Shown: one piece after another, positions 36,549-59,640 of the stretch
How positions within the stretch are numbered: position 1 is the first letter of the stretch
Layout of the letters: every line of letters starts with the position of its first letter
Assembly: GCA_963969345.1 (NCBI GenBank)
Contig: OZ017769.1
Location: forward strand, 4,278,816-4,342,815
DNA: 64,000 bases
DNA from: Turbatrix aceti
Lineage: Eukaryota; Nematoda; Chromadorea; Rhabditida; Panagrolaimidae
Direction of reading: 5' to 3'
The notes under the pieces: generated by a model
The model's input: the letters and a program-made list of their open reading frames with translations, nothing else
Told to the model about the DNA's origin: nothing
Databases searched by the model: none
Translations under genes and position numbers: made by a program

Positions 36549-39354
36549 TCAGTAATTCCACTTCGAATACCGCTTTTGTTGTTGAAACGGCTTGATTCCC
36601 TTAAGGTGGCTAATGAACTTGAGAACAGCATCCCGGGACTTGTTCCAGTTGTATTCAAAAGCCTCGAACTTTCCGTAGGACAGCTCGGGTCGCACCTTTT
36701 TGATGACGAGGTACCGAAAGGCGTCGCTATCCACGCAGAAGACGTTTTCCTTGCCGAAGGGGAGGTCAGCCCGCCGTTCAGACTTCACCGCGGCTTGCAG
36801 ACGCCTGATGGGCTGGATGGAGTCTCCGGGGCGGAAGAGAGTGCCGCAACTGTTGGTGAAGAAGAAGCAGACGTTGGGGAAGGCGTCGACGGAGAAGAGC
36901 GAGAGCAGCTTGCGGAAGACGAGCTCGAGGCCCGCGCCCATCTTGGCTTCGTTCGGCAGCAGCACGAAGCAGATCGCGTGCAGGGTCCCGGCGCGACGGA
37001 CGGCCTCTCGGATGGCCTCCAGGTTGTTGTCATCTTGGTCTACACCCCGAGTATCCCGCAAACCGGGTGTATCGATCAGGTTCAGGGTCAGATCGCCGTT
37101 CCGAAGTTGATGAACCTGCGGGACTTGAGTGACTGACTGTCCGACATCGTTGAAGTGCTCGTTCTTGTCCTCACCAAGAACGATCGTATGAACATCGTAG
37201 TCGTCGTCTTGGACTTCAAAGTTGCAGGGGAGGACCGAGAGCAGCTCCTGTCCAGCAGCGTCAGCGAGTTTGTCGTATTTGAAGTAGTTGACCATGCTGT
37301 TAATCAACGTCGATTTTCCGGTACCAGACGGTCCGATCAGCAGGACATTGAACTCGTCCTTGCGCGGCGAGGCTGAATCTGTTTGTGCAATAAGAAAATC
37401 CCATTTTTCCTAAACCAACCGTAGGAATCGAAAATCTCGAAACTGTGATGCAACTTGAGTGCCGTCTGTGAAGAAGAGTCTAAATAGCGAATAAATGCAA
37501 GCACAAAGTGTCCAACAACAAAAACGTACATTTTGGTTTTTCGCTGTAAAAAAGCTGATTTTCGATCAATTTCTTTGTCGTACATTCTGGTTTTCGATCA
37601 ACAACATCCACGTAACTTTTCGGGTTAGTTGAACCGCCTGTACGATCCGGATAAACGCTGGATGACGATGGACCTGGAGAGAGTCGTTTGTGGAAAAAAG
37701 TGGTATTGTGTTCGTTGTCGGCACCCCGGCGATTCGAAATGTTGAACTCAGCTAAAAAGAGTCAATTGCAGCAATCAAAAACAAAAAAAACCCAACCCAT
37801 ACGTTTGCTCAGTTTTTCACTTTTGTCGCCCGACTGATTCGAATTCGGATTTTGAGCACGATTGCCGATGCCGAAACGACTGTCCTTGATGTTGTCGGTT
37901 TCAGGCTTGGTGTCTGAAAAGAAGAATAATAAGTAACCCAAACACCTACGTGGACATCATTTGTGCCTCCTAACATCTGGTCCAATGATAACTAACCACT
38001 GAGTAATGGTGAAATAAATAAATAAATAAATAAAAGTAACCCAAAAAGTTGGCTTCAAACTACTTACGTTCTTCGAGCTCGAATTCCGACTTCGGGTTGC
38101 GTCCCAAGCGTAAAACTGGAATTTCCTTGTTCGACGCATGATCAGCTGTCGCAGATGCTGGTGAATGAGAATTCTTATATTCGGGAAGAGAATCCAAACC
38201 AATTTCTTGATAATGTACATCCGACGACCGAGAATCTGGATCACGCTGACTGGAGGCGAAATCGCTAGTGCTGCTGCGGGCAACGCTCGGGGATACGCTT
38301 TTCGGATCGCCATGAATGGACAAATCTGAAAATAGGTAACCACGGGGTAATAAAAACGTCAGAAAAGACGACAAACTGCTGATTTGATCGTCACGTTCTT
38401 TTTCCTTGGACTTTTTCCCATCAGAGCGCCCAGCTTTGATTTTACCTGTAAAATTTCAGAATTTTAAAAAACAGAGCTACAATCAGAGCGTCAAAAACGA
38501 CATACTGCAAAAATCGTTCAAGAGTTTTTGAACACCAAAATTCAAAAAATTAGCTCGTTCTTGGTTCTGGCGCCTCTGGTCTATAAATTAGGTAAAAAAA
38601 TGGCGATACGCTTGAAACGGTTACCTGGAAACACCTCGTAATACAATCGGCAAAACTCTCGGTACAACTCAGTGGGATCAGGGCTCGTAGAAATACAAAC
38701 ATTTTTACGATTGCAACGTTGATTCAAATCATGAACCAATTCTTGAAGACTGAACCGAGTCTGTTCCTTGAGTTTGATGAAATTCGGCACAAAATCAGTT
38801 GTGATAGGACAAAATTTTAAATAGTAATCATTGAAATCAACAAAGTCGGCATCCACTATTTCCCAGTTAACGAGAATCTCTCCTTGACAAAATGCAACGT
38901 TATCCAGGTACTCTGACCTCTATAAAAAAATAAACAACCCATTTAAAACATAAAAAAAATTACAATACCTGGCCATGAAAAATAGTCGGCAATTGTGCGA
39001 CGACGACGTAACCGTAGTACACAGCAGGGTCGTTAGTCCGAGTTTTGTGACTATAAAAGTATCGAACAGCAAAATCAGTAACCCGAGAAACGTTGAAGAA
39101 GTCTCGAGTGTCTTGCGGACATTGGGTAAGAAATTGCAGCTAAAAATTATCATTGGTTTATAATCATTTAAGCTAACATGTTAACTCACAGTGATCCATT
39201 CATCGCTTTGGAAAACAGGCGACAAACCCTCAACGACACGATCAGGTCTTATAGAAAAACAAACGGTTTCTTCATTGTTATACTCCAGAAACCCTAACGT
39301 TTCAAAAAAAACCGGAAGATTTCTATCAACACCACGAATCACTGGGCGAACCAT
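36549..39354 (-). CDS. GTPase G: family 2, full-length architecture
   Basis: The start MVRPVIRGVD (39354) follows a TTTTCAG acceptor by eleven bases. The first exon carries VVEGLSPVFQSDEWIT. N-terminal exons lie near 39141-38970 and 38923-38622. A long Ser/Lys-rich linker uses several exons (about 38580-37400), including a Ser-rich stretch near 38370-38070. The GTPase exon runs to 36549 with G1 GPSGTGKST, DTPGLRDTRGVDQDD and TNSCG. A short retroposon insertion lies in a linker intron (37941-38033). From about 37140 rightward the gene is nearly identical to gene H (from about 49880), the second copy of the duplicated unit. Confidence 0.75.
37941..38033 (+). mobile_element. AAAT-tailed retroposon fragment
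   Basis: About 93 bp ending in AAATAAATAAATAAATAA, flanked by the 10-bp direct repeat AAGTAACCCA (37931-37940 and 38034-38043). The corresponding point in gene H (about 50665) has only one, slightly diverged copy (AAGTATCCCA) and no insert. This fits a 5'-truncated non-LTR element or SINE. Confidence 0.75.
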
Positions 39355-39849
39355 CTTTTACTGCCCTGAAAAACAGAAAAATTCAGGATCTCCAAGCGAA
39401 ATAAACAACGCTTTCGAAAAAAAACGGCGCAATGGTTTTTGTGCAAAAAATATCCACGAAACGCGTCTTGCGGTTTTCAACAAACAACAAACCTTTCTTA
39501 TATTAGCAAAATGCACAAAAAAGCAAAAAAAGAAGCAGACTAAACAAAAAAATCAAGCAACGCGCAAGTATCCTCGACTACAACACTTTCCCGGGTCATC
39601 GACCGGCCGCAAGCGCAAAGCGACAAAAAACATTGGGTCTGCGTCGCAATCGCTCGCCGCCATGGTTCGCCAAAGCGAAAAAAAGAGAAACCAGAGTGGA
39701 CTAACAAACAGGGCAACGAAAATGACACTGCACATGTGTATCAAATTCGCTGGAAGACAAAAACTTTTCCCTAAAAATGGCAGGGCATACGGTGAGCGAT
39801 ATTCGCTGCGAGAGCTTCAAAGAGTTTCAAGAGTTATCCTATAATTTTT

Positions 39850-39975
39850 AAATCGATGTCGTTTGTTTGCAGAATACCATCAATAAACGCAATTACAGCA
39901 CTTTATCATCGTTCGTCGTTAAAAAATGACTGTTCACAAAAAGTGTCCATCGTGTCTTACAAAACAAGTACAAAA
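39850..39975. repeat. GTPase-flanking spacer repeat, copy a
   Basis: About 125 bp starting AAATCGATGTCGTTTGTTTG and ending near AAAACAAGTACAAAA. Related copies lie at about 43491-43615, 54284-54410 and 57207-57333, and a partial one near 49250-49275. The copies next to genes H, I and J lie directly at their 3' ends, so the repeat marks GTPase boundaries in the duplicated units. Confidence 0.65.
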
Positions 39976-40304
39976 TACCATGTTTTCTATCTGTAGAGAC
40001 TAAATTTTGTTTAAAATAACCAAAAAACAGACTGAAAAGTTGTGACCAACTGGGAGAAATTGGATCGATGGCATGCTGACCAACAATTCAACTAGTCAGT
40101 CTGTCAGTCATTTTGGCAAACCGTCAAAGAAGTTTTTTTTCTTTGCCGGTTTCCCAGATCCCAGAGTATAAAAAACAAAGAGCGCTTACCCAGCTTTTGC
40201 TGTACAAAAAGTAAAAGTAAAACTGTCCGTTGCGCTTTTCCACTGCTTATTTGTTTCCCTGAAACCAAGAAAGGGAAAGGCAACATCAGCAAACCACTTG
40301 AAAG

Positions 40305-41057
40305 TAGTGTTTGGCTGATATCAGGTTTTGCCTGATATCAGAGTCTGATACTGATAATGATATCAGTATCAGTATCAATCAGGATGAGATTTGGTATCAG
40401 GATGATATCAGAATGATATCATGATATCGATTTTTCGTCAAAATATGCTTTAAAATACCGTTTTTTTGCCATTTGCTCACAATTGATGTAAAAAATACTC
40501 ATTTTTATGTATCCGAGTAAAGCCATCCTCTATATTTTAATATTTAAAAACCGTTTTACTCTCATTTGAAAATGCGGCCCGTTTTTGACCACTGCACATT
40601 TTGTGCCACCAGGGTTTTCGACCGCTCCTGAAATCGCTCCGCTTCTGAGCGGAGGCAGAGCAAGCGATAAAAGAACGAAAAAAATATAAAGCGGGAGTGG
40701 AGCCAGCTGCATAAAAAAAAAATTAGGTGCGCGAGCGTACATAATTTAGAAAAAAAAGGAGCGAGGAGAGCGGTACAAAAAGTCAAAATAGAAAACCCTA
40801 TGTACAACGCAATTTTTAGTGTTTTTTTGCAGTGCATAAACGCAGAAAACAAAAACTTTACCTTTTTTGGACGACAAAATGATAAATTTATTCCAAAAAA
40901 AATTTTTTTGGGGTTAATTATCGAAACTAACATTATTATTGGTGATATCATGATATCATTCTGATATCATCCTGATATCAGTATCATATCATGATAGTGT
41001 TTGCAACTATCACTATCATATCATGATGGCAAAAAAAATGGTATCAGCCAAACACTA
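40305..41057. mobile_element. Complete hAT-like MITE (753 bp)
   Basis: The ends are perfect 16-bp inverted repeats, TAGTGTTTGGCTGATA and TATCAGCCAAACACTA. The element is flanked by the 8-bp direct repeat CTTGAAAG (40297-40304, 41058-41065). The duplicated unit has the empty site with a single CTTGAAAG at about 54731-54738. The interior has TGATATCA-rich subterminal regions and a GAGCGAGC tract, but no transposase. An 8-bp target duplication and short TIRs are hallmarks of hAT elements. Confidence 0.88.
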
Positions 41058-41211
41058 CTTGAAAGAACATTTATGTTGACAAACACAAAGTAAAAACCAA
41101 TACGTACAAAATTATGGGAAATAATTTGATTTTTTTTGAAAGTGTTGCTTAAATTAGAAATTTCCAATTTTTTCAGGCCATAAAAAATTCCAAAATATCA
41201 CCAAAAACTTT

Positions 41212-42909
41212 TCATGATATAACACAGTTTTTGCTGCAGTGAAAATTACGTTCACAGCAGCAAAAACCGCTAGAATTATCATCACGACAGTTTTCATTCG
41301 GTGGTCGACAAGGAGTGAATGATTCTCTACAAATCATCCACTCCACTTTTCGACCCGGACTCTCAGTTGAGAACAAAGAGTAAACGTCAATTAGTTGGTT
41401 CTGAATCGGTGCCAGCGGACCCAATTTTTGAATCAACGATGAATAACGATCATGAATTCGAAAGGGAACATACAAATGAAATTCAATGTTAGATGTAAGT
41501 TGTTTTTGAGTATTTGTCACGTAGCAACGGTCATATTTGTCCGGTTCAGATATATGACAACCTGCATCTGAGATATGTTGCAAATCCTCCACCCAATGAA
41601 TATACAAACAAAAATAAAAATCAGGGTCGGACATATATTTAATAACAATTTTTACATGCTTCGGAGCATGTTCACAGAGGATTTTACTCGTGTCGACGTA
41701 CCAGTTGAGAAATTGTAAAAATGAGTCAACAGAGTCATCATGGTGTGTAGGAGACCATAAGCGTTTAAACGTCAGATTAATGGTTTTCAGGTTAGGTGCC
41801 GTTCGGAGCAAGTTGATAATCAGGCTCAGTATTGAATCCGGTGAACGGTTCGTCCAAGCACGAAATTTTATGGATATTGAACGAGTTTTGTCTAGCCGAC
41901 CATCAAGTGTTTTTTCAAATACTGGGTTAAAATCCGAAACCTCAATGGGGATCAAATAGTCAAGATTCAGATTCGGAATGTTCAACGTAGAGAATACATT
42001 CTGAAAAATAAATTTGAAACAATGATGTATATTTTGAGTACCTGAACCGGAACTAGTTTCAGTAAAAAACATACCATAAGACAGGTTTTAGCCTCTTGTA
42101 TATCATCAAGCTTAAGTAAATGTAAAGGTGTAAACTTAATTGTGAGTGCATTAAGCTTTTCCGGCAGTTCAAACTTGAACACAGCATTAAGCGTTAAAAA
42201 ATGCATAGTAATTTCAGGAACTTGGAATGCTATAGATGCTAGCAAATAGCTTGCGTACGGATATTTTGATGCAAGCCCCCACCAATCCACATCCAAGGTT
42301 TTCAAATCTAAAATGAATTTATAAATGCATTGTAAAAATTTAATGTAAAAACATACTGTTAAAGTTTTGGAACTTTTGCAGAAATTCGGACGAAGGAAAA
42401 TGCTGGAACTTTATCTTCCGGATGAATGGTATCGCCCAAAACATCATTCTTTCGTCGCCAATTATAAAATAGGGGGGTCGAGGTTTTCCTGGAGGCTAAA
42501 AAACAAACAAAAAATGATTGGAAGTGCATGGTCGGTATTTCTAGTATGTGGAACATACTTCAGTATGTGCAATGGTTCAGAGCAGTGTATCGTATAATAA
42601 ATACATAATGGGTTACAAATTATATGTAAAAAATAAATAAATTACCTCACATAAACACTCCTCTATAGATTTACGTTTGAGAATATGGTCTGTATCACGT
42701 GGACATGTTAGGCATTGTGGAACATAGTTTCTATCTATATCCTTTTCGCGGTAATACGTTAACAGATTAACTTCTGTGTCTTCCATAAAACATGAAAAAG
42801 TCTCCGTCATCTCTGCACTCGAAAGCACGATTTTTTTGACAGGAATGAATCCTTTCTGCCAGGTTAACTCAATGATTTGTTTGCGATATCGGCGTGATAA
42901 AGCAGGCAT
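41212..42909 (-). CDS. Unknown LRR-like/F-box-like protein, copy 1
   Basis: A multi-exon gene: about 42909-42648 (start MPALSRRYRKQIIELTW), 42497-42362, 42307-42072 and 41212-42003. The protein has repeated Leu-rich segments (KTLDVDWWGLASKYPYASYL, LPEKLNALTIKFTPLHLLKL, LRTAPNLKTINLTF), which recall divergent leucine-rich or F-box-associated repeats, and a Cys-rich tail (ENCRDDNSSGFCCCERNFHC). An upstream exon near 43080-43400 is possible. I do not recognise the family. The second copy at 54885-56597 is about 98% identical by eye, and differences between the copies keep the frame open, suggesting a coding gene. Confidence 0.6.
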
Positions 42910-43622
42910 GTTTCCTCGGGATTCAGTCTTGGGTTCGGGTTGAGATCCGTACCGAACACGTTGGTGAGCTTTTCGATCGATGTGCTTATCGACTAGTTTC
43001 TCTCCGTACAGCAATCAATAACTCTAAAAAGACATCCGGTTAATTATTCACAATTTTAATTATATACAGTTCATACCGTGCAAAACTTTGAGTAATCCCG
43101 ACAGTATAAGGTTCCAATAACGGCGAAATCCGCTTGTTGGTCACCGTGAAGTGCAATGGATTTTAGCAAGAGATCACCTCGCCTGTTTTCACCATGCCAT
43201 GCACGAGTGTGTAGGCGGTCGCATTTGTTCCTTGGATAATGTGCGCGCGTCGGACGGCTGCCGGCCGGCCGGAACCCTGGTCTGTAAATATATGCACTTG
43301 GAACTGGACAGTTAGACCCGAATTTTCTAACCGATGTGAGCTGCCAAGCAGCGCGCGCTGAAAAGAAGGGAGGAGGGCACATCTATTGAGTGTGCGCGAC
43401 ATGTAACAGTTTTCAAGGACTCCCATGGGGATATTGCTGCTAGCCTTTCTTCCTTCCCTGCATGCGTTTCAAGAATTGTCCTGATTTTGAAATCGATGTC
43501 GTTTTTTTGCAAAATACCATCAATAAACGCAATTACAGCACTTTATCATCGTTCGTCGTAAAAAAATGACTGTTGCAAAAACGTACATCGTGTCTTACAA
43601 AACAAGTACAAATAGTGAGTTA
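42910..43622. other. Spacer with GTPase-flanking repeat copy b
   Basis: Contains a possible 5' exon of the unknown gene (about 43080-43400), a GC-richer patch with ACGGCTGCCGGCCGGCC (43250-43270), and the 125-bp spacer repeat at 43491-43615. It differs from the second duplicated copy by small indels near 43268 and 43380. Confidence 0.5.
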
Positions 43623-44779
43623 TTACACAGTCTGACGGCAAAGCGTGAGTTGCCCGAGTTGAGATTGGAAGGGTTTACGTTCTAGGACGAAGCGCACAAA
43701 GTTGCGTACCGATTCACTTGACTTTGACCAGTTGTACTCCACAGTCTTGAACGAACTGTAGTCGATACCCGGCGCCTTCTGTTTGACGACGAGGTATCTG
43801 AACGCGTCACTGTCAACGCAGAAGACGTTTTCCTTGCCGAAGGGGAGATCAGCGCCGAGTTCATCCTTGATCGCGGCTCGGAGACGCTTGATGGGCTGGA
43901 TGGAGTCTCCGGGGCGGAAGAGAGTGCCGCAACTGTTGGTGAAGAAGAAGCAGACGTTGGGGAAGGCGTCGACGGAGAAGAGCGAGAGCGGCTTGCGGAA
44001 GACGAGCTCGAGGCCCGCGCCCATCTTCGCTTCGTTCGGCAGCAGCACGAAGCAGATCGCGTGCAGGGTCCCGGCGCGACGGACGGCCTCTCGGATGGCC
44101 TCCAGGTTCTTTTCGTCCTGGTCGACGCCTCGGGAATCCCGGAGACCAGGCGTGTCGATCAGGTTGAAGGTCACCGCTCCGTGTTGCAGTTGGTGGACTT
44201 GTGGAAGCTGCGTGACGGACTGTCCGAGGTCGTTGAAGCATTCGTTTCCATCTTCGCCAAAAGCAATTTGGTAAAAGTTGTAGTCCTCGTCCTGGACGTC
44301 AAACTTGCAGGGGAGGACCGAAAGCAGTTCCTGTCCAGCGGCGTCGGCGAGTTTGTCGTATTTGAAGTAATTGACCATGCTGTTGATCAACGTCGACTTT
44401 CCCGCACCCGACGGTCCGATCAGCAGGACGTTGAATTCATTCTCCTTCGGATCACATTCAAAAACCCTGTCGAAGCTGGGATGCACGTTGGCTGTGGATT
44501 TTGAGTACTTGCCTGCAAAAAGCGTTCAAATGTTTAAAAACAACAAAAAAACCCACAGATTGGCTCATCCGGTGCGATGCGTCGCTTTGTGCCGGTTCGT
44601 GGCTTTTCAGGGTCCTTCCCCGGCTGAGGGTGTTCAAAAAAATGATCCACAATGTCATCATCGACGATGGTGAGCTGTTCTGAGGTGTTATCATCGATTT
44701 CGAGGTGTTCATCAGTAAGTGATGAGTTGCACTCGATTTCTGGGCCACAGGACAAAAGTCCACAATCACCGGTGGTGTC
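43623..44779 (-). CDS. GTPase I: family 2 module fused to the separase C-terminus
   Basis: This is the 3' part of a reading frame that begins in separase. Exon 44557-44891 crosses the junction at about 44779, and exon 43623-44512 carries the GTPase domain; phases close exactly. The linker (DTTGDCGLLSCGPEIEC...) is the same as in gene J, where it follows the family's own N-terminal domain; here that domain is replaced by separase. The GTPase domain is intact: GPSGAGKST, DTPGLRDSRGVDQDE, HAICFVLLPNEAKM, TNSCG, FCVDSDAFRYL. One unusual change (FRKPLSLF for FRKLLSLF) may matter. It has no start codon of its own with a family N-terminus, so expression would depend on separase or on an internal trans-splice site, for example the acceptor before 44512. 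Confidence 0.8.
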
Positions 44780-47700
44780 CAGATAGCATGGTAAGCCGTA
44801 GTAGACCAGGGAGTAACCCGTTAAAAAACGGAACATGCATATATCCCGGCTGGCGTGGATAGCTCTGGACAGAGAACCGACCGTTTCCCCGCTGCAATTT
44901 GGCCATGTACAAAGTGTTACATAAAACCCGGTCAAAAAAGCTTACGTGAGCTTTTGTGCAGGAAACGTGGGATCGATTTGACAAAGCTTTTTGTCAAAGT
45001 CTGACGAGAGGAAGTTCTTGAAGCTTTGGTGTACCAGGTGGATCATACACCGGTCGATCTCGCGATCAGTTACGGCCCACAGCGAGCCGAGGTAGCCCAT
45101 GCACTTGGAGAGCGTGTACTCGCGGAAAACAGATCGTCCATCCCGCCCGCGACCATAAGAAAAACTTCCAGCACTGCCGCAGCCGTACATAAGACAGATA
45201 GCCCCCTCTACAGCCGCGACAGCTGTAGAGGGTAATCCCCCCCCGTGGCCGGCGTACAAAATTATGTCGCTGTTGTTGAATCGATTCTGGATTATCTGCG
45301 AGCTAGGCCACTGGCCAATAACCGAATTTTCGTTGGTCAGCTGCATGAGACCGGATATTCGTTTTTGAGTTTCAGCCAGGTCGTTGCTGGGGTCGACGAT
45401 GCAGTAAATTTTCTTTGGGTCTTTTTTTATCGCGAACCATTTGGCAGCGATGGCTTCTCGGATGAGTTCATGCAATGAGTTCGCCCTGGTAATCAGCGGG
45501 AAGCCAGAGAAGGCAGGCAGAGCCTCGAAGGGCATTGACTGCACCTCCTGAAGAAGAAAGCGGTTACAAATGTTTTTTGTAAGCTGGTAAACTCACATAA
45601 CACAGGACGAGGATGACCCACACCCCCCGGGGCGCAGTTGCAGTATCCATCTCCTTGACTATTTGCATGTAAGCCTTGTGCCCGGAGTCGTAGTCGATCT
45701 TCTCGATGGCCTTCTCCCTGGCGGCGAGAGAAGGATTGCTTAGAAGAAGGGACAGGTGCTGGCAACCTTCGATGAGGCGCTTGAAAACCCTTGGACTGCA
45801 GATTGTCGGCAACGCGGCAATTACCTAAAATAACGAAAAAAAATATTGACTGAAAAACATCAAAGACTTTTTTTACTCACAAAAAAACAGAAACAATTTT
45901 TTGAACTTCAAAAACTCGGAATTTTTCTACGTTAAAAAAAAACGAGAAAAACTTTGTTTCAGAAAAAATAAAAAAATTTACGTTTCAGAAAAAGATTTGC
46001 ACCGAAAAAAAGTAAACCAACCTTTGCGAATCCCTCATGAATTTCAAATGTCTGGACCAGAAAATCCGTCGTCTTCTGCACAATTTCAGGCTGAAACTTA
46101 GGACAGAAAGGCTTGCAGAAGTTGTCGAAAGCCCCGAACCAGTGCTTGCTCAGCGAACGCATGAATTCTTCGAATCGAACGTTGAGTGAGCGCCGTACGC
46201 TGTAGAAGTTCTCCTTGCTGCCGGACGAACTGCTCGTGAAATTTTCCTTGACGAGTTGCCAGTAGTCGAGGAGCAATGGATCCTCGCTAAGAGACTTCTT
46301 CGGGTGCCCCAGCACGGTTAATGGGATCACGATGCAGGGCTGCGTTTTCTGGATCCGGACGAGCCAGAGCACGTTGGCTGCGTCGACAAAGAGTTCGAGG
46401 GTCGTGATGTCGGGTACAAAATTGTTCATATACAAGAACAACTCCGCGGCGTTCTTCAAGGGGGAAAGAGCGGTGCCCTTTTTGCGGAGCACAAAGGCGT
46501 TTGACAGGGCACAGCCGATGAAATCGGAGAAGAAAAAAGCCGCTTCCTGTGGGTTGGATTCCGCAAGGGCCGCTCCGAGATATGAGCAAACTGCGAACCT
46601 CCAAAGTCTGAAAAAAAAAGACTGCCAAAGCCTAAAAAACCAAAACTCACGGAAAAACAATCCCAGTGTAGAGTTCACGATCCCAGATGGCAGTTGCTAT
46701 GGACCTGGCCGCCATCAGCGGTGTCGACGCAAACTTTTTCGCAGCCGCCAGAACGTCTTCCCGATCAGCAGCCTCTTCGTCGACGTCCCGGAGCGTTTCC
46801 TTGTCCAAAAATCGCTGAGAAGCCTTCTTGGACATTGGAATGTCCAGTGCCAGCGAGATGATCGCCGGCAGGTTACTGTCGTCGACGGGGAGAGTCGCAC
46901 GCGAAGTATCCAGACCGTCCTTGTTCTTGACAAGCCAGGGGTACGCGGCTTCCCGGTCGAAGTCCAGTCGCTGGAGCTGACGAGAAAACAGCCAATAGCC
47001 ACGGAGTTCAATAAAGTCCTCTGTGAGCTAAAAAAACTATTTTCTGCGTGGAAAATAGCCAAAAATAAGAACTCACGCATTCGAGAGTCTGGCCGTGTAG
47101 CACAGGATCAAAATCCTCCAAGCGCCGGACGCAGGAGGTTGCAAAGTGCTCGAATGACAAGACGATAGCGGCGTAGTAGTGCATGCGAGACATCCGGAGC
47201 ACAAGAGGCTTGGGAAAGTCCTTTGCGTCAACAGCAGTCAGAATCGCATCCATGTGGGCGACGATTCGGGTCTTCGCGGCACCAAAGTGCGGGACGTAGA
47301 GCGCCTGCGTCGTCGGGGCCATGACCCGGTGAAGGAGGAACAAGGCCATTTCCATCTCGGTCCTGAGCGCGGAAGTGTTCATCGCGCTGATGCAGATAAA
47401 GCAGTGTCGGCAGGTGTGCGGAACGACCTGGCGTCGATCCCGAAAGAAAATCTCTGAAGTTTTGAAAATTGTAAAATCCTGGTCATCGCGTCGGCGCTCG
47501 TAGTAGGCATCGCATTCGGGACCCAGGTAGGTACCCTCGCGACAATCCTAAAAAAATGAGTTTAAAAAACGCGGAAAAAAAGATGAACAAAAATCCCACT
47601 GTCAAAGCCTGTGCCAACATAGCTCGGGCAAAAAGTGCCATGTAGTTGTCATCGACGACAAAGACCCGCTGAGCGAGCATGACGTTGAGTGCACGGACGA

Positions 47701-48958
47701 CGTAGCCGGGTGTAGACACGCTCATTGCCGTGCAGAGGGCAAGAATGCTGTAGTTTACGGCTTCGGTGGTTAAGAGGTGTTCCATAAGCGTCCAGGTGTA
47801 CTTCTCCGTGCCGTCGAAATATTCGAAAAAGCCTGCAGCTTGGCATACTAAAAAATAAAATTATTCAAAATTCAATTGTATGTCCCTAAAAACTCACAAA
47901 GGTCAATATAGTTCGGCTTCTGGCGATCAAAGTCCTTGAGCGGGATCTCAAATTCGAAGAAGAAGTACTTGATCTTGTCCATTCCAGTGTCACGACATAC
48001 CTCGAACAGCTCCTGGGCCCTAAGAATGGCAGGCACCGACTGAAGATAAAAATAAAAACTCAGTAACAAAACCCCCCTAAAAAAACGTACATCTTGCTGG
48101 ACCGCAGTCGCCATCGAGCATTCATACTGCAAAACTTCATGGATGAGAATCCGGCAGTAGTACGCAGTGAAGGCGGTCGTATCCTTCAGGTCCTCAAGCA
48201 TTTTTCTCATTTCATGACGACTGCGATCCCGTTCGGTGTCACAATCCGCGTGAAAGAATTCGGAATGAAGAACGCATGCAGTGAAGAGAACTTCGATGTG
48301 TGGATCAATTCGGGAGGACTTGATCATGTCGCCGATCAGGTCGACGACCCGGCAATGCGCAGCCCAGCGAAGGAGCAAGCTGGCCACCACAACATCTCGA
48401 TCGTTCAGTTGGAAGAGGCAGGCAAGGACGACGACAGCCCTGTCAATCTCGCCTTCAAAAAAGGCAATCGTTGCGAGACCTTGTCCCACGTTGACGCACA
48501 TGGCATACGATTCCGGGTCGCTGGATCGGCATGCGAGGGCGTAGGGATAAACAATGTCTATCCATTTCTCGGTGACAAACTAAAAAAACCACAACATATA
48601 AAAACTTTGGGTTACGGTAGAAATCCCGCCTCCTGAAACGGAAAAACAACAAACCTCGATGGTCGGGTCGTCAGAAAATGAGTTCCCCCGCCACGCCTGA
48701 AGCAGCGCCATCATGGGCTCCGCCAAGTCCGTAATGCCTTTCAAAGGAAAAGCTTCGCTGTAATTAGGCATTTTGTCGTGAACCTAAAAACAATAAAAAA
48801 AATTATTTGCAAAATGACCTGTCAAACCCCACCGTTTTCTGGTACATTTCCAACTTTTCCAGGTATCCGCAGACTCGTTTCTGCCCAACCGAAAGCCAGT
48901 TTTTGAGATCAGACTTGTCTTCGGATGATTTAGAAAAGCAACAATTAAAAAGTGACAT
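44780..48958 (-). CDS. sep-1: Separase (cysteine protease of sister-chromatid separation)
   Basis: The start is MSLFNCCFSKSSEDK at 48958. About eleven exons: 48833-48958, 48655-48783, 48580-48092, 48042-47899, 47849-47603, 47548-47080, 47028-46649, 46608-46022, 45826-45598, 45548-44943 and 44891 onward (middle boundaries approximate), for roughly 1,170 residues of separase. The N-terminal part is helical repeat-like. The C50 protease domain shows the catalytic His in YAGHGGG and the catalytic Cys in LMYGCGSAGS, then LGSLWAVTDREIDR and the terminal MFRFLTGYSLVYYGLPCYL. Separase cleaves the cohesin kleisin at anaphase. No stop codon follows the normal C-terminus; the frame runs straight into the linker of GTPase I. 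Length is near that of nematode separases. Confidence 0.9.
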
Positions 48959-51917
48959 AATTTTATACTATTTACGTAAGGGCAGCGTGTTGATGATCTG
49001 ACGTGATGCGGATGGGATCACCGTTAGAAAGTACTCCCAACGCGAATCTTTTTTGATGATTTTGTGATTCTTTTGTATGTGGCAAGCTCAGTAAAAGTGT
49101 TACCAAACTTTTTTTATGAGATGTTGTCAATAAGCCGTTATCTTAATTTCAACATTTTTTTACAACAGATCGTCTCATTTCTGGATAAATCCATGCCTCG
49201 AGTTTTGCGTAATGTGATCAAAACAGCCTCAATTTTATGTTTTGTGCCAAAGAAAACAAGTACAAAAAGTGAGTTATTACATAGTCTGACGGCAAAGCGC
49301 GAGTTGCCCGAGTTGAGATTGGAAGGGTTTACGTTCTAGGACGAAGCGCACAAAGTTGCGTACCGATTCACTTGACTTTGACCAGTTGTACTCCACAGTC
49401 TTGAACGAACTGTAGTCGATACCCGGCGCCTTCTGTTTGACGACGAGGTATCTGAACGCGTCGCTGTCAACGCAGAAGACGTTGTCCTTGCCGAAGGGGA
49501 GATCAGCGCCGAGTTCATCCTTGATCGCGGCTCGGAGACGCTTGATGGGCTGGATGGAGTCTCCGGGGCGGAAGAGAGTGCCGCAACTGTTGGTGAAGAA
49601 GAAGCAGACGTTGGGGAAGGCGTCGACGGAGAAGAGCGAGAGCAGCTTGCGGAAGACGAGCTCGAGGCCCGCGCCCATCTTGGCTTCGTTCGGCAGCAGC
49701 ACGAAGCAGATCGCGTGCAGGGTCCCGGCGCGGCGAACGGCCTCTCGGATGGCCTCCAGGTTCTTTTCGTCCTGGTCGACGCCTCGGGAATCCCGGAGAC
49801 CGGGTGTATCGATCAGGTTGAGCGTGAGATCGTCGTGCCGAAGTTGGTGGACCTGCGGAAGTTGAGTGACGGATTGTCCGACATTGTTGAAGTGCTCGTT
49901 CTTATCCTCACCAAGAACGATCGTATGAACATCGTAGTCGTCGTCTTGGACTTCAAAGTTGCAGGGGAGGACCGAGAGCAGCTCCTGTCCAGCAGCGTCA
50001 GCGAGTTTGTCGTATTTGAAGTAGTTGACCATGCTGTTAATCAACGTCGATTTTCCGGTACCAGACGGTCCGATCAGCAGGACATTGAAATCGTCCTTGC
50101 GCGGCGAGGCTGAATCTGTTTGTGTAATAAGAAAACCCTTTTTTCCTAAACCAACCGTAGGAATCGAAAATCTCGAAACTTGGATGCAACTTGGGTGCCG
50201 TCTGTGAAGAAGAGTCTAAATAGCGAATAAATGCAAGCACAAAGTGTCAAACAACAAAAACGTACATTTAGGTTTTTCGCTGTAAAAAAGCTGATTTTCG
50301 ATCAATTTCTTTGTCGTACATTCTGGTTTTCGATCAACAACATCCACGTAACTTTTCGGGTTAGTTGAACCGCCTGTACGATCCGGATAAACGCTGGATG
50401 ACGATGGACCTGGAGAGAGTCGTTTGTGGAAAAAAGTGGTATTGTGTTCGTTGTCGGCACCCCGGCGATTCGAAATGTTGAACTCAGCTAAAAAGAGTCA
50501 ATTGCAGCAATCAAAAACAAAAAAAACCCAACCCATACGTTTGCTCAGTTTTTCACTTTTGTCGCCCGACTGATTCGAATTCGGATTTTGAGCACGATTG
50601 CCGATGCCGAAACGACTGTCCTTGATGTTGTCGGTTTCAGGCTTGGTGTCTGAAAAGCAGAACATAAGTATCCCAAAAAATTGGCTTTAAACTACTTACG
50701 TTCTTTGCGCTCGATATCCGACTGCCGGTAGCTTCCAAGGCGTAAAACTGGAATTTCCTTGTCCGACGCATGACCAGCTGTCGCAGATGCTGGTGAATGA
50801 GAACTCTTATATTCGGGAAGAGAATCCAAACCAATTTCTTGATAGTGTACATCCGACGACCGAGGATCTGGACCACGCTGACTGGAGGCGAAATCGCTAG
50901 TGCTGCTGCGGGCAACGCTCGGGGATACGCTTTTCGGATCGCCATGAATGGACAAATCTGAAAATAGGTAACCACGGGGTAATAAAAACGTCAGAAAAGA
51001 CGACAAACTGCTGATTTGATCGTCACGTTCTTTTTCCTTGGACTTTTTCCCATCAGAGCGCCCCGCTTTGATTTTATCTGTAAAATTTCAGAATTTTAAA
51101 AAACACAGCTACAATCAGAGCGTCAAAAACGACATACTGCAAAAATCGTTCAAGAGTTTGTGAACACCAAAATTCAAAAAATTAGCTCGTTTTTGGTTCT
51201 GGCGCCTCTGGTCTATAAATTAGGTAAAAAAATGGCGATACGCTTGAAACGGTTACCTGGAAACACCTCGTAATACCATCGGCAAAACTCTCGGTACAAC
51301 TCAGTGGGATCAGGGCTCGTAGAAATACAAACATTTTTACGATTGCAACGTTGATTCAAATCATGAACCAATTCTTGAAGACTGAACCGAGTCTGTTCCT
51401 TGAGTTTGATGAAATTCGGCATAAAATCAGTACTGATAGGACAAAATTTTAAATAGTAATCATTGAAATCAACAAAGTCGGCATCCACTATTTCCCAGTT
51501 AACGAGAATCTCTCCTTGACAAAATGCAACGTTATCCAGGTACTCTGAGCTCTATAAAAAAATAAACAACCCATTTAAAACATAAAAAAATTACAATACC
51601 TGGCCATGAAAAATAGTCGGCAATTGTGCGACGACGACGTAACCGTAGTACACAGCAGGGTCGTTAGTCCGAGTTTTGTGACTATAAAAGTATCGAACAG
51701 CAAAATCAGTAACCCGAGAAACGTTGAAGAAGTCTCGAGTGTCTTGCGGACATTGGGTAAGAAATTGCAGCTAAAAATTATCATTGGTTTATAATCATTT
51801 AAGCTAACATGTTAACTCACAGTGATCCATTCATCGCTTTGGAAAATAGGCGACAAACCCTCAACGACACGATCAGGTCTTATAGAAAAACAAACGGTTT
51901 CTTCATTGTTATACTCC

Positions 51918-52026
51918 TGATGTATATTGTTGACTGCCTAAAATTTGCATATGATTTCTGTATATAAGCTCGCGCCATCAAATAAACTGAGAGAGACTTG
52001 AGTGAGTCGAACTTGGAGATACACCA
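51918..52026 (+). repeat. Left LTR
   Basis: 109-bp direct repeat, identical to 53607-53715 by eye, with terminal TG...CA, a TATA-like TATATAAG and a polyadenylation-like AATAAA. Confidence 0.92.
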
Positions 52027-52348
52027 TCTGGTGACGAGAGTGCGTCGATTTCATTCCACGCTCAGAAGTACCGCCGTCGACCGCCGGCCACCAACGCATC
52101 TCTCCCGTTTCACACGACAGACTTCATCCTCGTCACGGTTGCGATTCGCGCCGTTGACTACCGGAAACAAGGAAATCGGTATCGGCTACGACACGCAGCG
52201 CCACACAGCGACCAGTAGGAGATACTCCTACGTCAAACCGACAGACTCGCGGCTGCAAACAAGCCAGCCTACCACACCCGGGATCGCGCTACGCGAACCG
52301 GTAAACAGCCCCAATCAGCTTGCCACGCGATTCGCGTAGGACTTCATC

Positions 52349-53584
52349 ATGTCAGGCGAAACAGCGGCTACAGCTACTCCCCAGCAGATCCAGGCAGGAA
52401 GCGCCTCTTTTGGATCCTTGTGGCAGCCCCAGCCGTACGACCCAACAACGGACTGGACTACATGGGAAGACCAGTTCGACATCTATGCGCTCGCCAAGAA
52501 TCTCACCACCGATAACGACAAAAAGATAGCCCTCTTACATGCCATAGGGACCAAGGCATATACCGACCTCAAGGCTTGGACGAAGCCGAAAAAGCCAGTC
52601 GACCTGAAGTACGCCGCCCTCCTGAAGATACTTCAGGAGCGGTACGGCGAGAAAATCGACCCCATGATTGCGAGGCTCGAGCTCAGCAGTACCAAGCAGA
52701 AGCATGACGAAGCGCCGCTGGACTACGTTCGCCGAATGACGGCACTCGCAACCAACTGCGAGTTCAAAGACGAGCGCTCACTAATCCTCGACATCGTCAA
52801 AGGAGTACGGTCCGAGAAGCTACGAGAATATCTACTCCGCAGCGAGAACTTGAAGACCTCCACTAAAGAACTTCAAGACGTCATCAGGTCCCACGCGGCC
52901 TATGAAAAAGTTGCCAAAGCAGCAAGGACGGTCGATACGACTGCCCCCTTCACGATCAACCAGATTCGGGCGTCCAGTGAATGCTACCGTTGCGGCAAGA
53001 CGTACATTCCAGGCCACAAGTGCCCTGCTCGTCAAGTCACGTGCAATTTCTGCAAAAAGCTAGGACACTACGAAAAGATGTGCTATCAGAAGAAGAAGCA
53101 ATCTAGCCAAGAGGAAGATCGAGATGACATACAGAACTCCAAAGAAAAACGCAAAAGCACCACGATAAACGAAGTTGCAGACGATACGTCTAGCAGTGGC
53201 AGAATGCCCAGATACCCCTCGACTTACGAATTGACTGCAGACAACGATTACTGCATCTTGGCACTCGATACTGCGGAACGCCATGAAAGTCGCGGAGGAT
53301 CCAGCGACGAGGGTACTCTCAACACAACAGAAAAAGAAGAGAAGGACTACCTTAACAACATGAAGCCGGCGCATACGCCGTCTACCACGACTGAGAAGCT
53401 CCATGAAGAACTTCGGAAGATCAAGCGCGAACGAGGGCATACTCTTCGCAAGGCTCTCAACGAAGAAACTCGCCATGGGAAAACTCCGAAGTACCTGGCT
53501 CTTGCAGAACAAGCCCGTATACTGTCTCATCGTTGGAAATCGCACTTCAAGCATCTACAATTGGCTACCGACCCCGACTCTTAA
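52349..53584 (+). CDS. Retrotransposon Gag protein with zinc knuckles
   Basis: A single uninterrupted frame of 411 residues starting MSGETAATATPQQIQ. The N-terminal half (about residues 25-190) has the W-x-x-W...F capsid-like helical layout of Ty3/gypsy-type Gag (TDWTTWEDQFDIYALAK, YVRRMTALATNCEF, VKGVRSEKLREYLL). Two Cys knuckles follow at about 213-245: CYRCGKTYIPGHKC (unusual spacing) and the canonical C-X2-C-X4-H-X4-C in CNFCKKLGHYEKMC. The remaining charged 165 residues have no recognisable enzyme motif. There is no frameshift into a pol frame before the right LTR. Gag packages the RNA; replication enzymes would have to come from another element. Confidence 0.9.
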   Translation: MSGETAATATPQQIQAGSASFGSLWQPQPYDPTTDWTTWEDQFDIYALAKNLTTDNDKKIALLHAIGTKAYTDLKAWTKPKKPVDLKYAALLKILQERYGEKIDPMIARLELSSTKQKHDEAPLDYVRRMTALATNCEFKDERSLILDIVKGVRSEKLREYLLRSENLKTSTKELQDVIRSHAAYEKVAKAARTVDTTAPFTINQIRASSECYRCGKTYIPGHKCPARQVTCNFCKKLGHYEKMCYQKKKQSSQEEDRDDIQNSKEKRKSTTINEVADDTSSSGRMPRYPSTYELTADNDYCILALDTAERHESRGGSSDEGTLNTTEKEEKDYLNNMKPAHTPSTTTEKLHEELRKIKRERGHTLRKALNEETRHGKTPKYLALAEQARILSHRWKSHFKHLQLATDPDS

Positions 53585-53606
53585 GCTCTCAAATGGAAGG
53601 AAAAGA

Positions 53607-53715
53607 TGATGTATATTGTTGACTGCCTAAAATTTGCATATGATTTCTGTATATAAGCTCGCGCCATCAAATAAACTGAGAGAGACTTGAGTGAGTCGAA
53701 CTTGGAGATACACCA
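53607..53715 (+). repeat. Right LTR
   Basis: Identical to the left LTR and followed by the target duplication ACTCC, then by the resumed first exon of gene H. Confidence 0.92.
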
Positions 53716-54283
53716 ACTCCAGAAACCCTAACGTTTCAAAAAGAACCGGAAGATTTCTATCAACACCACGAATCACTGGGCGAACCATCTTTTACTGTCC
53801 TGAAAAACAGAAAAATTCAGGATCTCCAAGCGAAATAAACAACGCTTTCGAAAAAAAACGGCGCAATGGTTTTTGTGCAAAAAATATCCACGAAACGCGT
53901 CTTGCGGTTTTCAACAAACAACAAACCTTTCTTATATTAGCAAAATGCACAAAAAAGCAAAAAAAGAAGCAGACTAAACAAAAAAATCAAGCAACGCGCA
54001 AGTATCCTCGACTACAACACTTTCCCGTGTCATCGACCGGCCGCAAGCGCAAAGCGACAAAAAACATTGGGTCTGCGTCGCAATCGCTCGCCGCCATGGT
54101 TCGCCAAAGCGAAAAAAAGAGAAACCAGAGTGGACTAACAAACAGGGCAACGAAAATGACACTGCACATGTGTATCAAATTCGCTGGAAGACAAAAACTT
54201 TTCCCTAAAAATGGCAGGGCATACGGTGAGCGATATTCGCTGCGAGAGCTTCAAAGAGTTTCAAGAGTTATCCTATAATTTTT

Positions 54284-54410
54284 AAATCGATGTCGTTTGT
54301 TTGCAGAATACCATCAATAAACGCAATTACAGCACTTTATCATCGTTCGTCGTTAAAAAATGACTGTTCACAAAAAGTGTCCATCGTGTCTTACAAAACA
54401 AGTACAAAAT
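54284..54410. repeat. GTPase-flanking spacer repeat, copy c
   Basis: Second-unit counterpart of 39850-39975, nearly identical. Confidence 0.65.
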
Positions 54411-54884
54411 ACCATGTTTTCTATCTGTAGAGACTAAATTTTGTTTAAAATAACCAAAAAACAGACTGAAAAGTTGTGACCAACTGGGAGAAATTGGATC
54501 GATGGCATGCTGACCAACAATTCAACTAGTCAGTCTGTCAGTCATTTTGGCAAACCGTCAAAGAAGTTTTTTTTCTTTGCCGGTTTCCCAGATCCCAGAG
54601 TATAAAAAACAAAGAGCGCTTACCCAGCTTTTGCTGTACAAAAAGTAAAAGTAAAACTGTCCGTTGCGCTTTTCCACTGCTTATTTGTTTCCCTGAAACC
54701 AAGAAAGGGAAAGGCAACATCAGCAAACCACTTGAAAGAACATTTATGTTGACAAACACAAAGTAAAAACCAATACGTACAAAATTATGGGAAATAATTT
54801 GATTTTTTTTGAAAGTGTTGCTTAAATTAGAAATTTCCAATTTTTTCAGACCAAAAAAATTTCGAAAACATCACCAAAAACTTT

Positions 54885-56597
54885 TCATGATATAACACAG
54901 TTTTTGCTGCAGTGAAAATTACGTTCACAGCAGCAAAAACCGCTAGAATTATCATCACGACAGTTTTCATTCGGTGGTCGACAAGGAGTGAATGATTCTC
55001 TACAAATCATCCACTCCACTTTTCGACCCGGACTCTCAGTTGAGAACAAAGAGTAAACGTCAATTAGTTGGTTCTGAATCGGTGCCAGCGGACCCAATTT
55101 TTGAATCAACGATGAATAACGATCATGAATTCGAAAGGGAACATACAAATGAAATTCAATGTTAGATGTAAGTTGTTTTTGATTATTTGTCACGTAGCAA
55201 CGGTCATATTTGTCCGGTTCAGATATATGACAACCTGCATCTGAGATATGTTGCAAATCCTCCACCCAATGAATATACAAACAAAAATCAAAATCAGGGT
55301 CGGACATATATTTAATAACAATTTTGACATGCTTCGGAGCATGTTCACAGAGGATTTTACTCGTGTCGACGTACCAGTTGAGAAATTGTAAAAATGAGTC
55401 AACAGAGTCATCATGGTGTGTAGGAGACCATAAGCGTTTAAACGTCAGATTAATGGTTTTCAGGTTAGGTGCCGTTCGGAGCAAGTTGATAATCAGGCTC
55501 AGTATTGAATCCGGTGAACGGTTCGTCCAAGCACGAAATTTTATGGATATTGAACGAGTTTTGTCTAGCCGACCATCAAGTGTTTTTTCAAATACTGGGT
55601 TAAAATCCGAAACCTCAATAGGGATCAAATAGTCAAGATTCAGATTCGGAATGTTCAACGTAGAGAATACATTCTGAAAAATAAATTTGAAACAATGATG
55701 TATATTTCAAGAAACTTTTGAGTACCTGAACCGGAACTAGTTTCAGTAAAAAACATACCATAAGACAGGTTTTAGCCTCTTGTATATCATCAAGCTTAAG
55801 TAAATGTAAAGGTGTAAACTTAATTGTGAGTGCATTAAGCTTTTCCGGCAGTTCAAACTTGAACACAGCATTAAGCGTTAAAAAATGCATAGTAATTTCA
55901 GGAACTTGGAATGCTATAGATGCTAGCAAATAGCTTGCGTACGGATATTTTGATGCAAGCCCCCACCAATCCACATCCAAGGTTTTCAAATCTAAAATGA
56001 ATTTATAAATGCATTGTAAAAATTTAATGTAAAAACATACTGTTAAAGTTTTGGAACTTTTGCAGAAATTCGGACGAAGGAAAATGCTGGAACTTTATCT
56101 TCCGGATGAATGGTATCGCCCAAAACATCATTCTTTCGTCGCCAATTATAAAATAGGGGGGTCGAGGTTTTCCTGGAGGCTAAAAAACAAACAAAAAATG
56201 ATTGGAAGTGCATGGTCGGTATTTCTAGTATGTGGAACATACTTCAGTATGTGCACTGGTTCAGAGAAGTGTATCGTATAATAAATACATAATGGGTTAC
56301 AAATTATATTTATGTAAAAAATAAATAAATTACCTCACATAAACACTCCTCTATAGATTTACGTTTGAGAATATGGTCTGTATCACGTGGACATGTTAGG
56401 CATTCTGGAACATAGTTTCTATCTATATCCTTTTCGCGGTAATACGTTAACAGATTAACTTCTGTGTCTTCCATAAAACATGAAAAAGTCTCCGTCATCT
56501 CTGCACTCGAAAGCACGATTTTTTTGACAGGAATGAATCCTTTCTGCCAGGTTAACTCAATGATTTGTTTGCGATATCGGCGTGATAAGGCAGGCAT
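54885..56597 (-). CDS. Unknown LRR-like/F-box-like protein, copy 2
   Basis: Duplicate of 41212-42909 with the same exon order: start MPALSRRYRKQIIELTW at 56597, then about 56181-56045, 55988-55760 and 55676-54885. Substitutions between the copies are few and do not break the frame (for example DPDFDFC here, DPDFYFC in copy 1). One intron differs by a short insertion (around 55709-55723). The same Leu-rich segments and Cys-rich tail are present. Function unknown. Confidence 0.6.
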
Positions 56598-57339
56598 GTT
56601 TCCTCGGGATTCAGTATTGGGTTCGGGTTGAGATCCGTACCGAACACGTTGGTGAGCTTTTCGATCGATGTGCTTATCGACTAGTTTTTCTCCGGACAGC
56701 AATCAATAACTCTAAAAAGACATCCGGTTAATTATTCACAATTTTGATTATATGCAGTTCATACCGTGCAAAACTTAGAGTAATCCCGACAGTATAAGGT
56801 TCCAATAACGGCGAAATCCGCTTGTTGGTCACCGTGAAGTGCAATGGATTTTAGCAAGAGATCACCTCGCCTGTTTTCACCATGCCATGCACGAGTGTGT
56901 AGGCGGTCGCATTTGTTCCTTGGATAATGTGCGCGCGTCGGACGGCTGCCGGCCGGCCATTCATTCTAAACCCTGGTCTGTAAATATATGCACTTGGAAC
57001 TGGACAGTTAAAACTGACCCGAATTTTCTAACCGATGTGAGCTGCCAAGCAGCGCGCGCTGAAAAGAAGGGAGGAGGGCACACTAGTGTGCGGCATGCGC
57101 TGCTAATGAGTGTGCGCGACATGTAACAGTTTTCAAGGACTCCCATGGGGATATTGCTGCTAGCCTTTCTTCCTTCCCTGCATGCGTTTCAAGAGTTGTC
57201 CTGATTTTGAAATCGATGTCGTTTTTTTGCAAAATACCATCAATAAACGCAATTACAGCATTTTATCATCGTTCGTCGTTAAAAAATGACTGTTACAAAA
57301 ACGTCCATCGTGTCTTACAAAACAAGTACAAAAAGTGAG
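56598..57339. other. Spacer with GTPase-flanking repeat copy d
   Basis: Counterpart of 42910-43622, including the spacer repeat at 57207-57333 and a possible 5' exon of the unknown gene. It carries small insertions relative to the first copy near 56958 and 57083. Confidence 0.5.
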
Positions 57340-59640
57340 TTATAACATAGTCTGACGGCAAAGCGCGAGTTGCCCGAGTTGAGATTGGAAGGGTTTACGT
57401 TCTAGGACGAAGCGCACAAAGTTGCGTACCGATTCACTTGACTTTGACCAGTTGTACTCCACAGTCTTGAACGAACTGTAGTCGATACCCGGCGCCTTCT
57501 GTTTGACGACGAGGTATCTGAACGCGTCACTGTCAACGCAGAAGACGTTTTCCTTGCCGAAGGGGAGGTCCGCGCCGAGTTCATCCTTCATCGCGGCTCG
57601 GAGACGCTTGATGGGCTGGATGGAGTCTCCGGGGCGGAAGAGAGTGCCGCAACTGTTGGTGAAGAAGAAGCAGACGTTGGGGAAGGCGTCGACGGAGAAG
57701 AGCGAGAGCAGCTTGCGGAAGACGAGCTCGAGGCCCGCGCCCATCTTGGCTTCGTTCGGCAGCAGCACGAAGCAGATCGCGTGCAGGGTCCCGGCACGAC
57801 GGACGGCCTCTCGGATGGCCTCCAGGTTCTTTTCGTCCTGGTCGACGCCTCGGGAATCCCGGAGACCAGGCGTGTCGATCAGGTTGAAGGTCACCGCTCC
57901 GTGTTGCAGTTGGTGGACTTGTGGAAGCTGCGTGACGGACTGTCCGAGGTCGTTGAAGCATTCGTTCCCATCTTCGCCAAAAGCAATTTGGTAAAAGTTG
58001 TAGTCCTCGTCCTGGACGTCAAACTTGCAGGGGAGGACCGAGAGCAGCTCCTGTCCATCTGCATCGGTCAGTTTCTCGTATTTGAAGTAGTTGACCATGC
58101 TGTTGATCAACGTCGACTTTCCCGCACCCGACGGTCCGATCAGCAGGACGTTGAATTCATTCTCCTTCGGATCACATTCAAAAACCCTGTCGAAACTGTT
58201 ATGCACGTTGGCTGTGGATTTTGAGTACTTGCCTGCAAAAAGCGTTCAAATGTTTAAAAACAACAAAAAAAACCCACAGATTGGCTCATCCGGTGCGATG
58301 CGTCGCTTTGTGCCGGTTCGTGGCTTTTCAGGGTCCTTCCCCGGCTGAGGGTGTTCAAAAAAATGATCCACAATGTCATCATCGACGATGGTGAGCTGTT
58401 CTGAGGTGTTATCATCGATTTCGAGGTGTTCATCAGTAAGTGATGAGTTGCACTCGATTTCTGGGCCACAGGACAAAAGTCCACAATCACCGGTGGTGTC
58501 GATTTTGATGGAGTCGCTGTCAATCGGCTCAGAAGTAGGTAAATCTGTAAAAAAAGAAAATTTTCCTTTCCGGCACCCAAAAAGCCAAAAAAAAATACCT
58601 TCTTGGGCCTGGGAAATGGGCGGTGTAACATCGCGGGTCGCCTTTTTGACTGAAAAACCGCCAAAAAAATTTTTCACATAAAAAACGCAAAAAAATCACC
58701 AATTGGCTTGAAATGAAATTTTCGAAGTACTTTAGACAGGCAGTCGACAATCCGCCGACCTTTTCCACGACTCTCGCTCTGCTTTTCCAAAGTTCGACGG
58801 TAGAACTCTTGGAACAGGTCATTGGGGTCGTCTGTGAGTGCAGATTTGTTGCCGAAAGAAGAAATCATATCCAGGACGAGTTTCCGATGTTTTTCTCCTT
58901 CATTGGCCTCTGGGATGTAAGAAATCGTGACCGGACCGCATCCATCGAAATTCACGTCATCGACATGGGTGACCCGCCAGTTGACAAGTACGGTGCCTTG
59001 GAACATTCGCTTGTAGTCGGGGGGCTGTAAATTCCGTTCACGTTAAAAAAAAATATCAGAAGAAGGGAAACCAACGTAAGTAACGTCTACGTGAGCCAGC
59101 GGAGCGATGATTGTGTTGCCGAAAGAGATGTCGACGTTTCTCTGATAGCACTTTCGCTGGGATTTGACGTAGGTGATTACGAACATGGTCGGTTTCGAAA
59201 CGGACAGGAAGTTGAGGGTTTCGACAGGGCATCCCATCAGGAATCGAAGCTGGAAACCAGGTACTTTCCAGGTAAAAATTCGCTCATTTCGCTTGCACCC
59301 CACATTTTCAATTTTTTTCGCTCCAGGAGCACTCTTTCAAAATTCTGTTCTCGCTCCGCTCTTATTTTTTCAAGTTTGTTTCAGGAGCAATTTTAGGATC
59401 GGCGAACAACCCTGCCAAGCAAACATGTCTCGCAGCGAAAAACAACCATCAAAACTCAAAACTCACCGTAAGCCATTTGTCAAAGGCAAAAATCTCGGAC
59501 AAGCCGTCGACCAATTTGCCGGGTAGAATTCTGAAGACTTCGCTCTTGATCCGCTTGCTGGAAGATTCTATGACTGTGTCGGATACGGGATATCCGTCGA
59601 TGTGCTGTACAAAGGGTCGGGAAATTTTGGGTTCCCTCAT
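57340..59640 (-). CDS. GTPase J: family 2, full-length architecture
   Basis: The start MREPKISRPF (59640) is one base after an acceptor-like TTTTAG. The first exon has LVDGLSEIFAFDKWLT. N-terminal exons lie near 59250-59073 and 59025-58700, small linker exons near 58652-58598, then an acidic linker exon (about 58544-58279) and the GTPase exon 57340-58233 or so with GPSGAGKST, DTPGLRDSRGVDQDE and TNSCG. The linker and GTPase domain are nearly identical to the segment fused to separase at 43623-44779. Gene J therefore shows the ancestral arrangement from which the fusion arose. Intact. Confidence 0.78.

Follow-up and report, generated by a model that had tools for sequence, protein, structure and literature searches.

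The window analyzed here is a stretch of 64,000 nucleotides from the nematode Turbatrix aceti (C5:4278816-4342815), which was searched against 59.9 Mb of the genome in 28 contigs, the scope of all genome-wide statements below. On its minus strand, between 48958 and 43623, lies a gene of 12 exons in which the reading frame of a separase, a protease of family C50, runs on into an AIG1-like (GIMAP/Toc34-type) GTPase. Each of the 11 introns has GT-AG borders, and splicing yields a frame of 4,623 nt with its sole stop at the very end, giving a predicted product of 1,540 residues that comprises separase (residues 1-1170), an acidic linker, and the GTPase. Exon borders were placed by homology to an unfused separase paralog elsewhere in the genome and to a neighboring GTPase gene, here called gene J, both of which are described below. 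GC content across the window varies between 36 and 52% per 2 kb, compared to the 32.1% reported for the nematode Halicephalobus mephisto.

Exon 1 (48833-48958) opens with approximately 19 codons (MSLFNCCFSKSSEDKSDLK) that bear no relation to the other separase, to which DNA homology starts at 48901; these first 19 residues, together with 350 bp upstream, are single copy in the genome and not derived from the paralog, and a pair of cysteines near this N-terminus might, speculatively, be lipid-modified. The separase body extends from 48901 down to 44780. Exon 10 (44946-45547) carries the catalytic residues His1033 and Cys1055, exon 11 (44557-44891) holds the end of separase and, continuing in frame, the linker of gene J, and exon 12 (43623-44512), separated from it by a 44 nt intron 11 (44513-44556), encodes the AIG1-like GTPase domain. 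These last two exons coincide with those proposed in a sequence-only reading of the window, which had described a separase with a normal C-terminus but no stop, continuing through them into a complete GTPase domain. The separase C-terminus, GYSLVYYGLPCYL, is indeed followed directly by DTTGD and an open frame, and the GTPase domain is complete; the proposed separase length of about 1,170 residues likewise agrees with our model, while the tail is 370 residues long, rather than 360.

The Peptidase_C50 profile (PF03568) matches the fusion at 139.7 bits (curated cutoff 27.8), and GTPase profiles also match. As in the C50 separases, of which C. elegans SEP-1 (PDB 5mz6) is an example, the profile, the catalytic His and Cys, and the conserved C-terminal YG[LF]P are all in place, and a cysteine-rich motif is found in the N-terminal half. 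Unlike these proteins, the frame runs 370 residues on into a GTPase, the loop between the catalytic His and Cys is four residues short, and the N-terminus differs from that of the paralog.

The fusion join lies on the minus strand at 44779-44790, with its placement uncertain over about 10 bases. Comparison of the window with itself gives a repeat that ends at 44779, equivalent to 58500, midway through the exon that encodes the linker in gene J, and a 361 bp query across the join splits genome-wide, with bases 8-171 matching the second separase locus (83%) and bases 182-361 matching gene J (100%); we therefore place the join within this interval. The only full-length match to the query is the window copy itself. 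The 223 bp linker occurs twice in the genome, in the fusion and in gene J, and the two copies are 100% identical. Gene J (57340-59655, minus strand; a hand-made model) has its own N-terminal domain, to which no Pfam family could be matched, followed by the same linker and a GTPase. Thus, both the breakpoint at about 44779 and the shared linker, as originally proposed, are borne out, and replacement of the N-terminal domain of gene J by separase is the simplest history. Further fused copies were also considered and rejected, as the join and linker searches gave no more.

The join falls on the edge of a segmental duplication, present in pieces, between 36637-44779 (block A) and 49374-58500 (block B). 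The right part of block A (41054-44779) aligns with 54727-58500 at 97.35% identity including gaps, with 52 mismatches (about 1.4%) plus indels; its left part (36637-40304) consists of pieces matching 49374-54738 at 93.7-99.7%, and block B contains an extra inserted stretch at 51.9-53.7 kb. The join cost separase only about its last two codons, and splice and 3' signals were retained. Directly upstream of the fusion gene, across a gap of 318 bp, lies a further GTPase gene (GB; 49277-50215, minus strand) that is itself a mosaic, with a 3' part near-identical to the fusion tail and to gene J and a 5' part resembling the GTPase at 36549-37409. This mosaic points to unequal exchange within the GTPase cluster, with an order of events that we infer.

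Several smaller elements lie in these blocks. The stretch at 51918-53718 is bounded by 112 bp repeats that are 99% alike, has no counterpart at the equivalent place of block A, and is probably a retroelement; on its plus strand, an open frame of 414 amino acids (52340-53584) encodes a CCHC knuckle with a weak PNMA/gag match (18.6 bits, cutoff 25). The duplicated pieces contain four copies of a 150 bp repeat (at 39824, 43466, 54258, and 57186), with two of the sites lying within a 99.7% copy and the remainder being 91-93% alike, and an element of about 750 bp with imperfect inverted ends (40302-41060) is present in block A and missing from the matching place in block B.

A genome-wide search with PF03568 gave two loci, the window and C5:490557-491066. 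The latter belongs to the unfused separase (L003, C5:488-497 kb), which lies on the same contig 3.8 Mb away, has an 11-exon model of 1,276 residues ending in ...GYSLVYYGFPPFLSE and a stop, and scores 138.1 bits with the C50 profile. As an unfused separase with its own stop exists in the genome, the fused gene is an extra separase paralog and not "the" anaphase protease. That the anaphase protease carries a GTPase, as the sequence-only reading suggested, does not follow; we soften this to a GTPase on a separase paralog. An exon of a MEK kinase adjoins the unfused gene; it is 74-77% identical to proteins of Panagrolaimus (75%) and Panagrellus (74%) and to an environmental protein, which makes a clade IV nematode likely. 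In addition, a separase exon fragment of 51 bp (C5:549702-549752, 92% identical) lies inside an open frame whose end resembles that of a frame at 41212-42087 of the window, and may be a piece of a gene picked up by a mobile element.

Including introns, the DNA of the two separase genes is 91% identical in the 5' part and 85% in the 3' part. Over 1,172 codons, the NG86 method gives a synonymous divergence (dS) of 0.257 and a nonsynonymous divergence (dN) of 0.106, and thus a ratio of 0.41. Five of the 10 comparable exons differ in length, each time by a multiple of three (72, 12, 213, 3, and 12 nt), with the first of these falling in the unrelated N-terminus. When neutral substitution was simulated (2,000 runs each), the frames remained open in 20%, 4.7%, 0.2%, and 0% of runs after an assumed 50, 100, 222, and 444 substitutions, respectively. 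Divergence is patchy along the pair: dS ranges from 0.09 to 0.98, and the introns differ by between 0 and 17% individually and by 9.2% when all ten are pooled. This pattern suggests gene conversion and limits what can be said about rates. We note that exon 4 (14% divergent) lies between introns at 0 and 4%, and that exons 9 and 10 (11 and 19%) flank a 2% intron.

In the C-terminal half, we counted the sites at which the two copies differ and one agrees with an outgroup, using C. elegans, human, and 4 of 10 database separases. The counts, fused to unfused, are 15 to 12 for C. elegans, 4 to 8 for human, and 17 to 14, 12 to 23, 14 to 14, and 12 to 10 for P0001, P0004, P0005, and P0008, respectively. 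Against C. elegans separase, the whole copies score 143.9 (fused) and 140.2 bits (unfused). Given these similar scores, neither copy is plainly faster-evolving, and both look coding, with about equal conservation of the C-terminal half. A decayed pseudogene was rejected on the basis of the open frame, the dN/dS ratio, and the relative rate.

Taking these observations together, the reading we favor on balance, although with considerable reserve, is that of a chimeric gene of recent origin. A young segmental duplication probably brought the final codons of a separase paralog together, within one exon and without loss of frame, with the neighboring gene's linker and GTPase exon. A single mRNA, spliced through intron 11, would then be translated as one separase-GTPase protein of 1,540 residues. 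By analogy with Toc34 and GIMAP proteins, the tail would gather or anchor the fused separase copy at membranes, a setting in which C. elegans separase already has a role with vesicles, and the unfused copy would carry out chromosome separation.

The most serious competitor, to which we give perhaps a quarter of our credence, is that the fusion is a fortuitous by-product of the recent duplication, that is, real and maybe transcribed DNA with a passive tail that is to be lost or to decay. The join is young, both parents (the unfused separase and gene J) persist, and a proline at position 152 of the GTPase is unique to the fusion; furthermore, an in-frame join is unsurprising in itself, since a join between two coding exons keeps the frame one time in three by chance. 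Set against this are the preservation of the separase codons and processing signals at the join and the constraint on the separase pair. The block that brought the tail is, we note, too little diverged to reveal selection acting on the fusion as such.

Turning to the active sites, the fused copy has both a GHGGG and a GCGS motif, with the catalytic His-Gly and Cys present. The spacing between His and Cys is, however, 22 residues, compared to 26 in the paralog (His1133, Cys1159) and in C. elegans (1014/1040), and to 26-27 in 13 of 13 other separases, that is, C. elegans, human (26, counted in the alignment), the unfused paralog, and all 10 database proteins. The shorter spacing is a departure measured here and not one from a published criterion, and we have not used it to deny membership of the separases. 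Within the loop lies an 11 bp perfect inverted repeat (45232-45222 and 45214-45204, minus strand), which is not present in the aligned unfused gene and looks like the scar of a hairpin-templated mutation or template switch. HTCRHCFIC, found in both paralogs, is a CxxCxxC with an upstream His that we compared with the CxCxxC of the regulatory domain of metazoan separases (PMC5921967).

If the fused copy were a protease-dead separase, kept as a regulator or bait while the GTPase does the work, both the shortened spacing and the hairpin-like scar would be accounted for. We consider this rather unlikely, as His, Gly, and Cys are kept and the C50 score is no lower than that of the paralog. An expressed dead copy should, moreover, be costly: PMC4171520 describes protease-dead SEP-1 as dominant negative in C. 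elegans embryos, and therefore a dead fused copy, if expressed in embryos, should be harmful. By this analogy, the fused copy is likely to be active, expressed elsewhere, or silent. At the opposite extreme, the fused gene could be the working separase, an anaphase protease with a GTP-binding, dimerizing tail that would set the place and time of cutting. At residues 1132-1136 the unfused copy has GHDTG; the corresponding motif is GHGxG in C. elegans, in human, in all 10 database proteins, and in the fused copy, and this change from HG to HD is an odd one for a clan CD active site; even so, we regard this possibility as improbable.

The GTPase tail has recognizable G1 (GPSGAGKST) and G3 (DTPG) motifs, and a Toc34/GIMAP fold, with Toc34 as the nearest solved structure. 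Toc34 and GIMAP2 dimerize through their G domains on membranes when GTP-bound, and one PDB title among the structure matches to the tail mentions dimerization in Toc33/Toc159. With the AIG1 profile, three sibling GTPases of the window score 24.4 (a frame given without a P-loop), 38.9, and 40.8 bits, and there are at least 63 AIG1-like matches genome-wide. Other AIG1-like genes, on contigs C1 and C4 (L018-L034), have long and dissimilar N-terminal stretches ahead of the P-loop, reaching 483 residues in a single open frame, with several of the C1 group carrying a CxxC-CxC motif.

With regard to whether one protein or two would be made, the nearest Met upstream of the join is residue 1152, within separase, and the first downstream is residue 1290, past the start of the P-loop; no Met lies between the join (residue 1171) and the P-loop (1277), and therefore a complete GTPase from exon 12 would seem to need translation from the separase exons. 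The interval 44945-44513 is free of all nine poly(A)-type hexamers searched for, and a GATAAA is found 76 nt past the fusion stop, as compared to 70 nt past that of the unfused gene. The splice scores of intron 11 (donor 10.2, acceptor 10.0) are ordinary: donors score 6.4-11.3 and acceptors 6.4-13.2 across the remaining ten introns of the gene, with a matrix built from these ten and the ten introns of the paralog. The start codon and preceding poly(A) signal of its own that a downstream gene in a spliced leader (SL) trans-spliced operon has are both missing. SL1-like RNA genes give 43 genome matches, all below the Rfam curated cutoff, with an exact SL1 exon in the five of five loci inspected; among the matches listed, 13 lie at C6:3376694-3418638, eleven of them about 1,644 bp apart and two 24 kb further, probably as a tandem array.

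Two products, with separase ending in a retained intron 11 and the GTPase made through internal trans-splicing or a promoter, could draw on the stop that readthrough into intron 11 meets after about 8 codons (as the sequence-only reading had also pointed out), on the many SL1-like genes of this nematode, and on the 3' splice sites directly before 44891 and 44512. The Met-free stretch and the lack of a preceding poly(A) hexamer argue against a separate GTPase product and weaken the internal trans-splice alternative raised earlier, and an out-of-frame ATG precedes the Met at residue 1152 within the same exon. The ordinary splice scores of intron 11 also count against this alternative; we consider two products very unlikely. 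We regard as equally improbable an assembly misjoin at the edge of the 97% repeat, where the join does fall, given that the substitutions and several indels between the copies come with distinct flanks on both sides, that the contig is 11.5 Mb long, and that both flanking parts are in frame across the join.

The following points weigh against the chimeric protein that we favor. The fusion product is a prediction from genomic DNA, and the membrane role of its tail is an analogy. The short His-Cys loop and the unique proline, seen in this GTPase alone among 18 aligned, leave the activity of either half open to doubt, and the predicted structure of the catalytic exon (pLDDT 55.5) is too poor to judge the loop. 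The AIG1 profile score of 25.9 bits falls just below the Pfam cutoff of 27, and the subfamily has no G4 (T/N)KxD motif, the fusion having FTNSCGT at this place and the remaining 17 aligned sequences FTNxx or FNSTR, which is why we use the label AIG1-like and not AIG1. At this level of block divergence an open tail proves little, the GTPase of the fused copy having just four silent and three amino-acid assignable changes. Finally, the fused copy scores 81.4 bits against human separase, compared to 94.9 for the unfused copy, and agrees with human and with one fungal outgroup (P0004) at fewer of the differing sites.

We found no match to this fusion in a protein database, where all 10 matches were C50 proteins of 22-27% identity, none with a listed GTPase domain; this is a weak negative, as it draws on 7,987 word-sharing candidates that were scored, apparently including no close relative. 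A separase-GTPase fusion was likewise not found among the titles and abstract openings listed in literature searches. Securin, phosphorylation, and self-cleavage all restrain separase, which is not known to include a GTPase. According to PMC4171520, the C. elegans enzyme relocates to cortical granules and membranes in addition to chromosomes. The AIG1 family is described as expanded in Halicephalobus mephisto, a clade IV nematode, with 84 AIG1 domains in PMC6872716, a paper that a full-text search for separase with AIG1 does not return. The T. aceti genes resemble these in domain kind and in their clustered copies, and the fusion differs from AIG1-like GTPases in having separase as its N-terminal partner and in a subfamily without the TKxD-type G4 motif. 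As in other chimeric genes born of segmental duplication, an exon-internal edge fuses two genes in frame and the parents persist; the difference here is in one of the parents, a paralog of a protease essential to the cell cycle.

Having one separase paralog with a GTPase built in and another without would make it possible to ask whether the chromosome and vesicle roles of separase can be divided between genes. If the fusion is silent, it would still be a newly formed and well-resolved chimera involving the paralog of an essential enzyme, at about 1.4% divergence and with its parents present. In nematode AIG1-like clusters more broadly, these observations suggest that the N-terminal partner of the GTPase is exchangeable.

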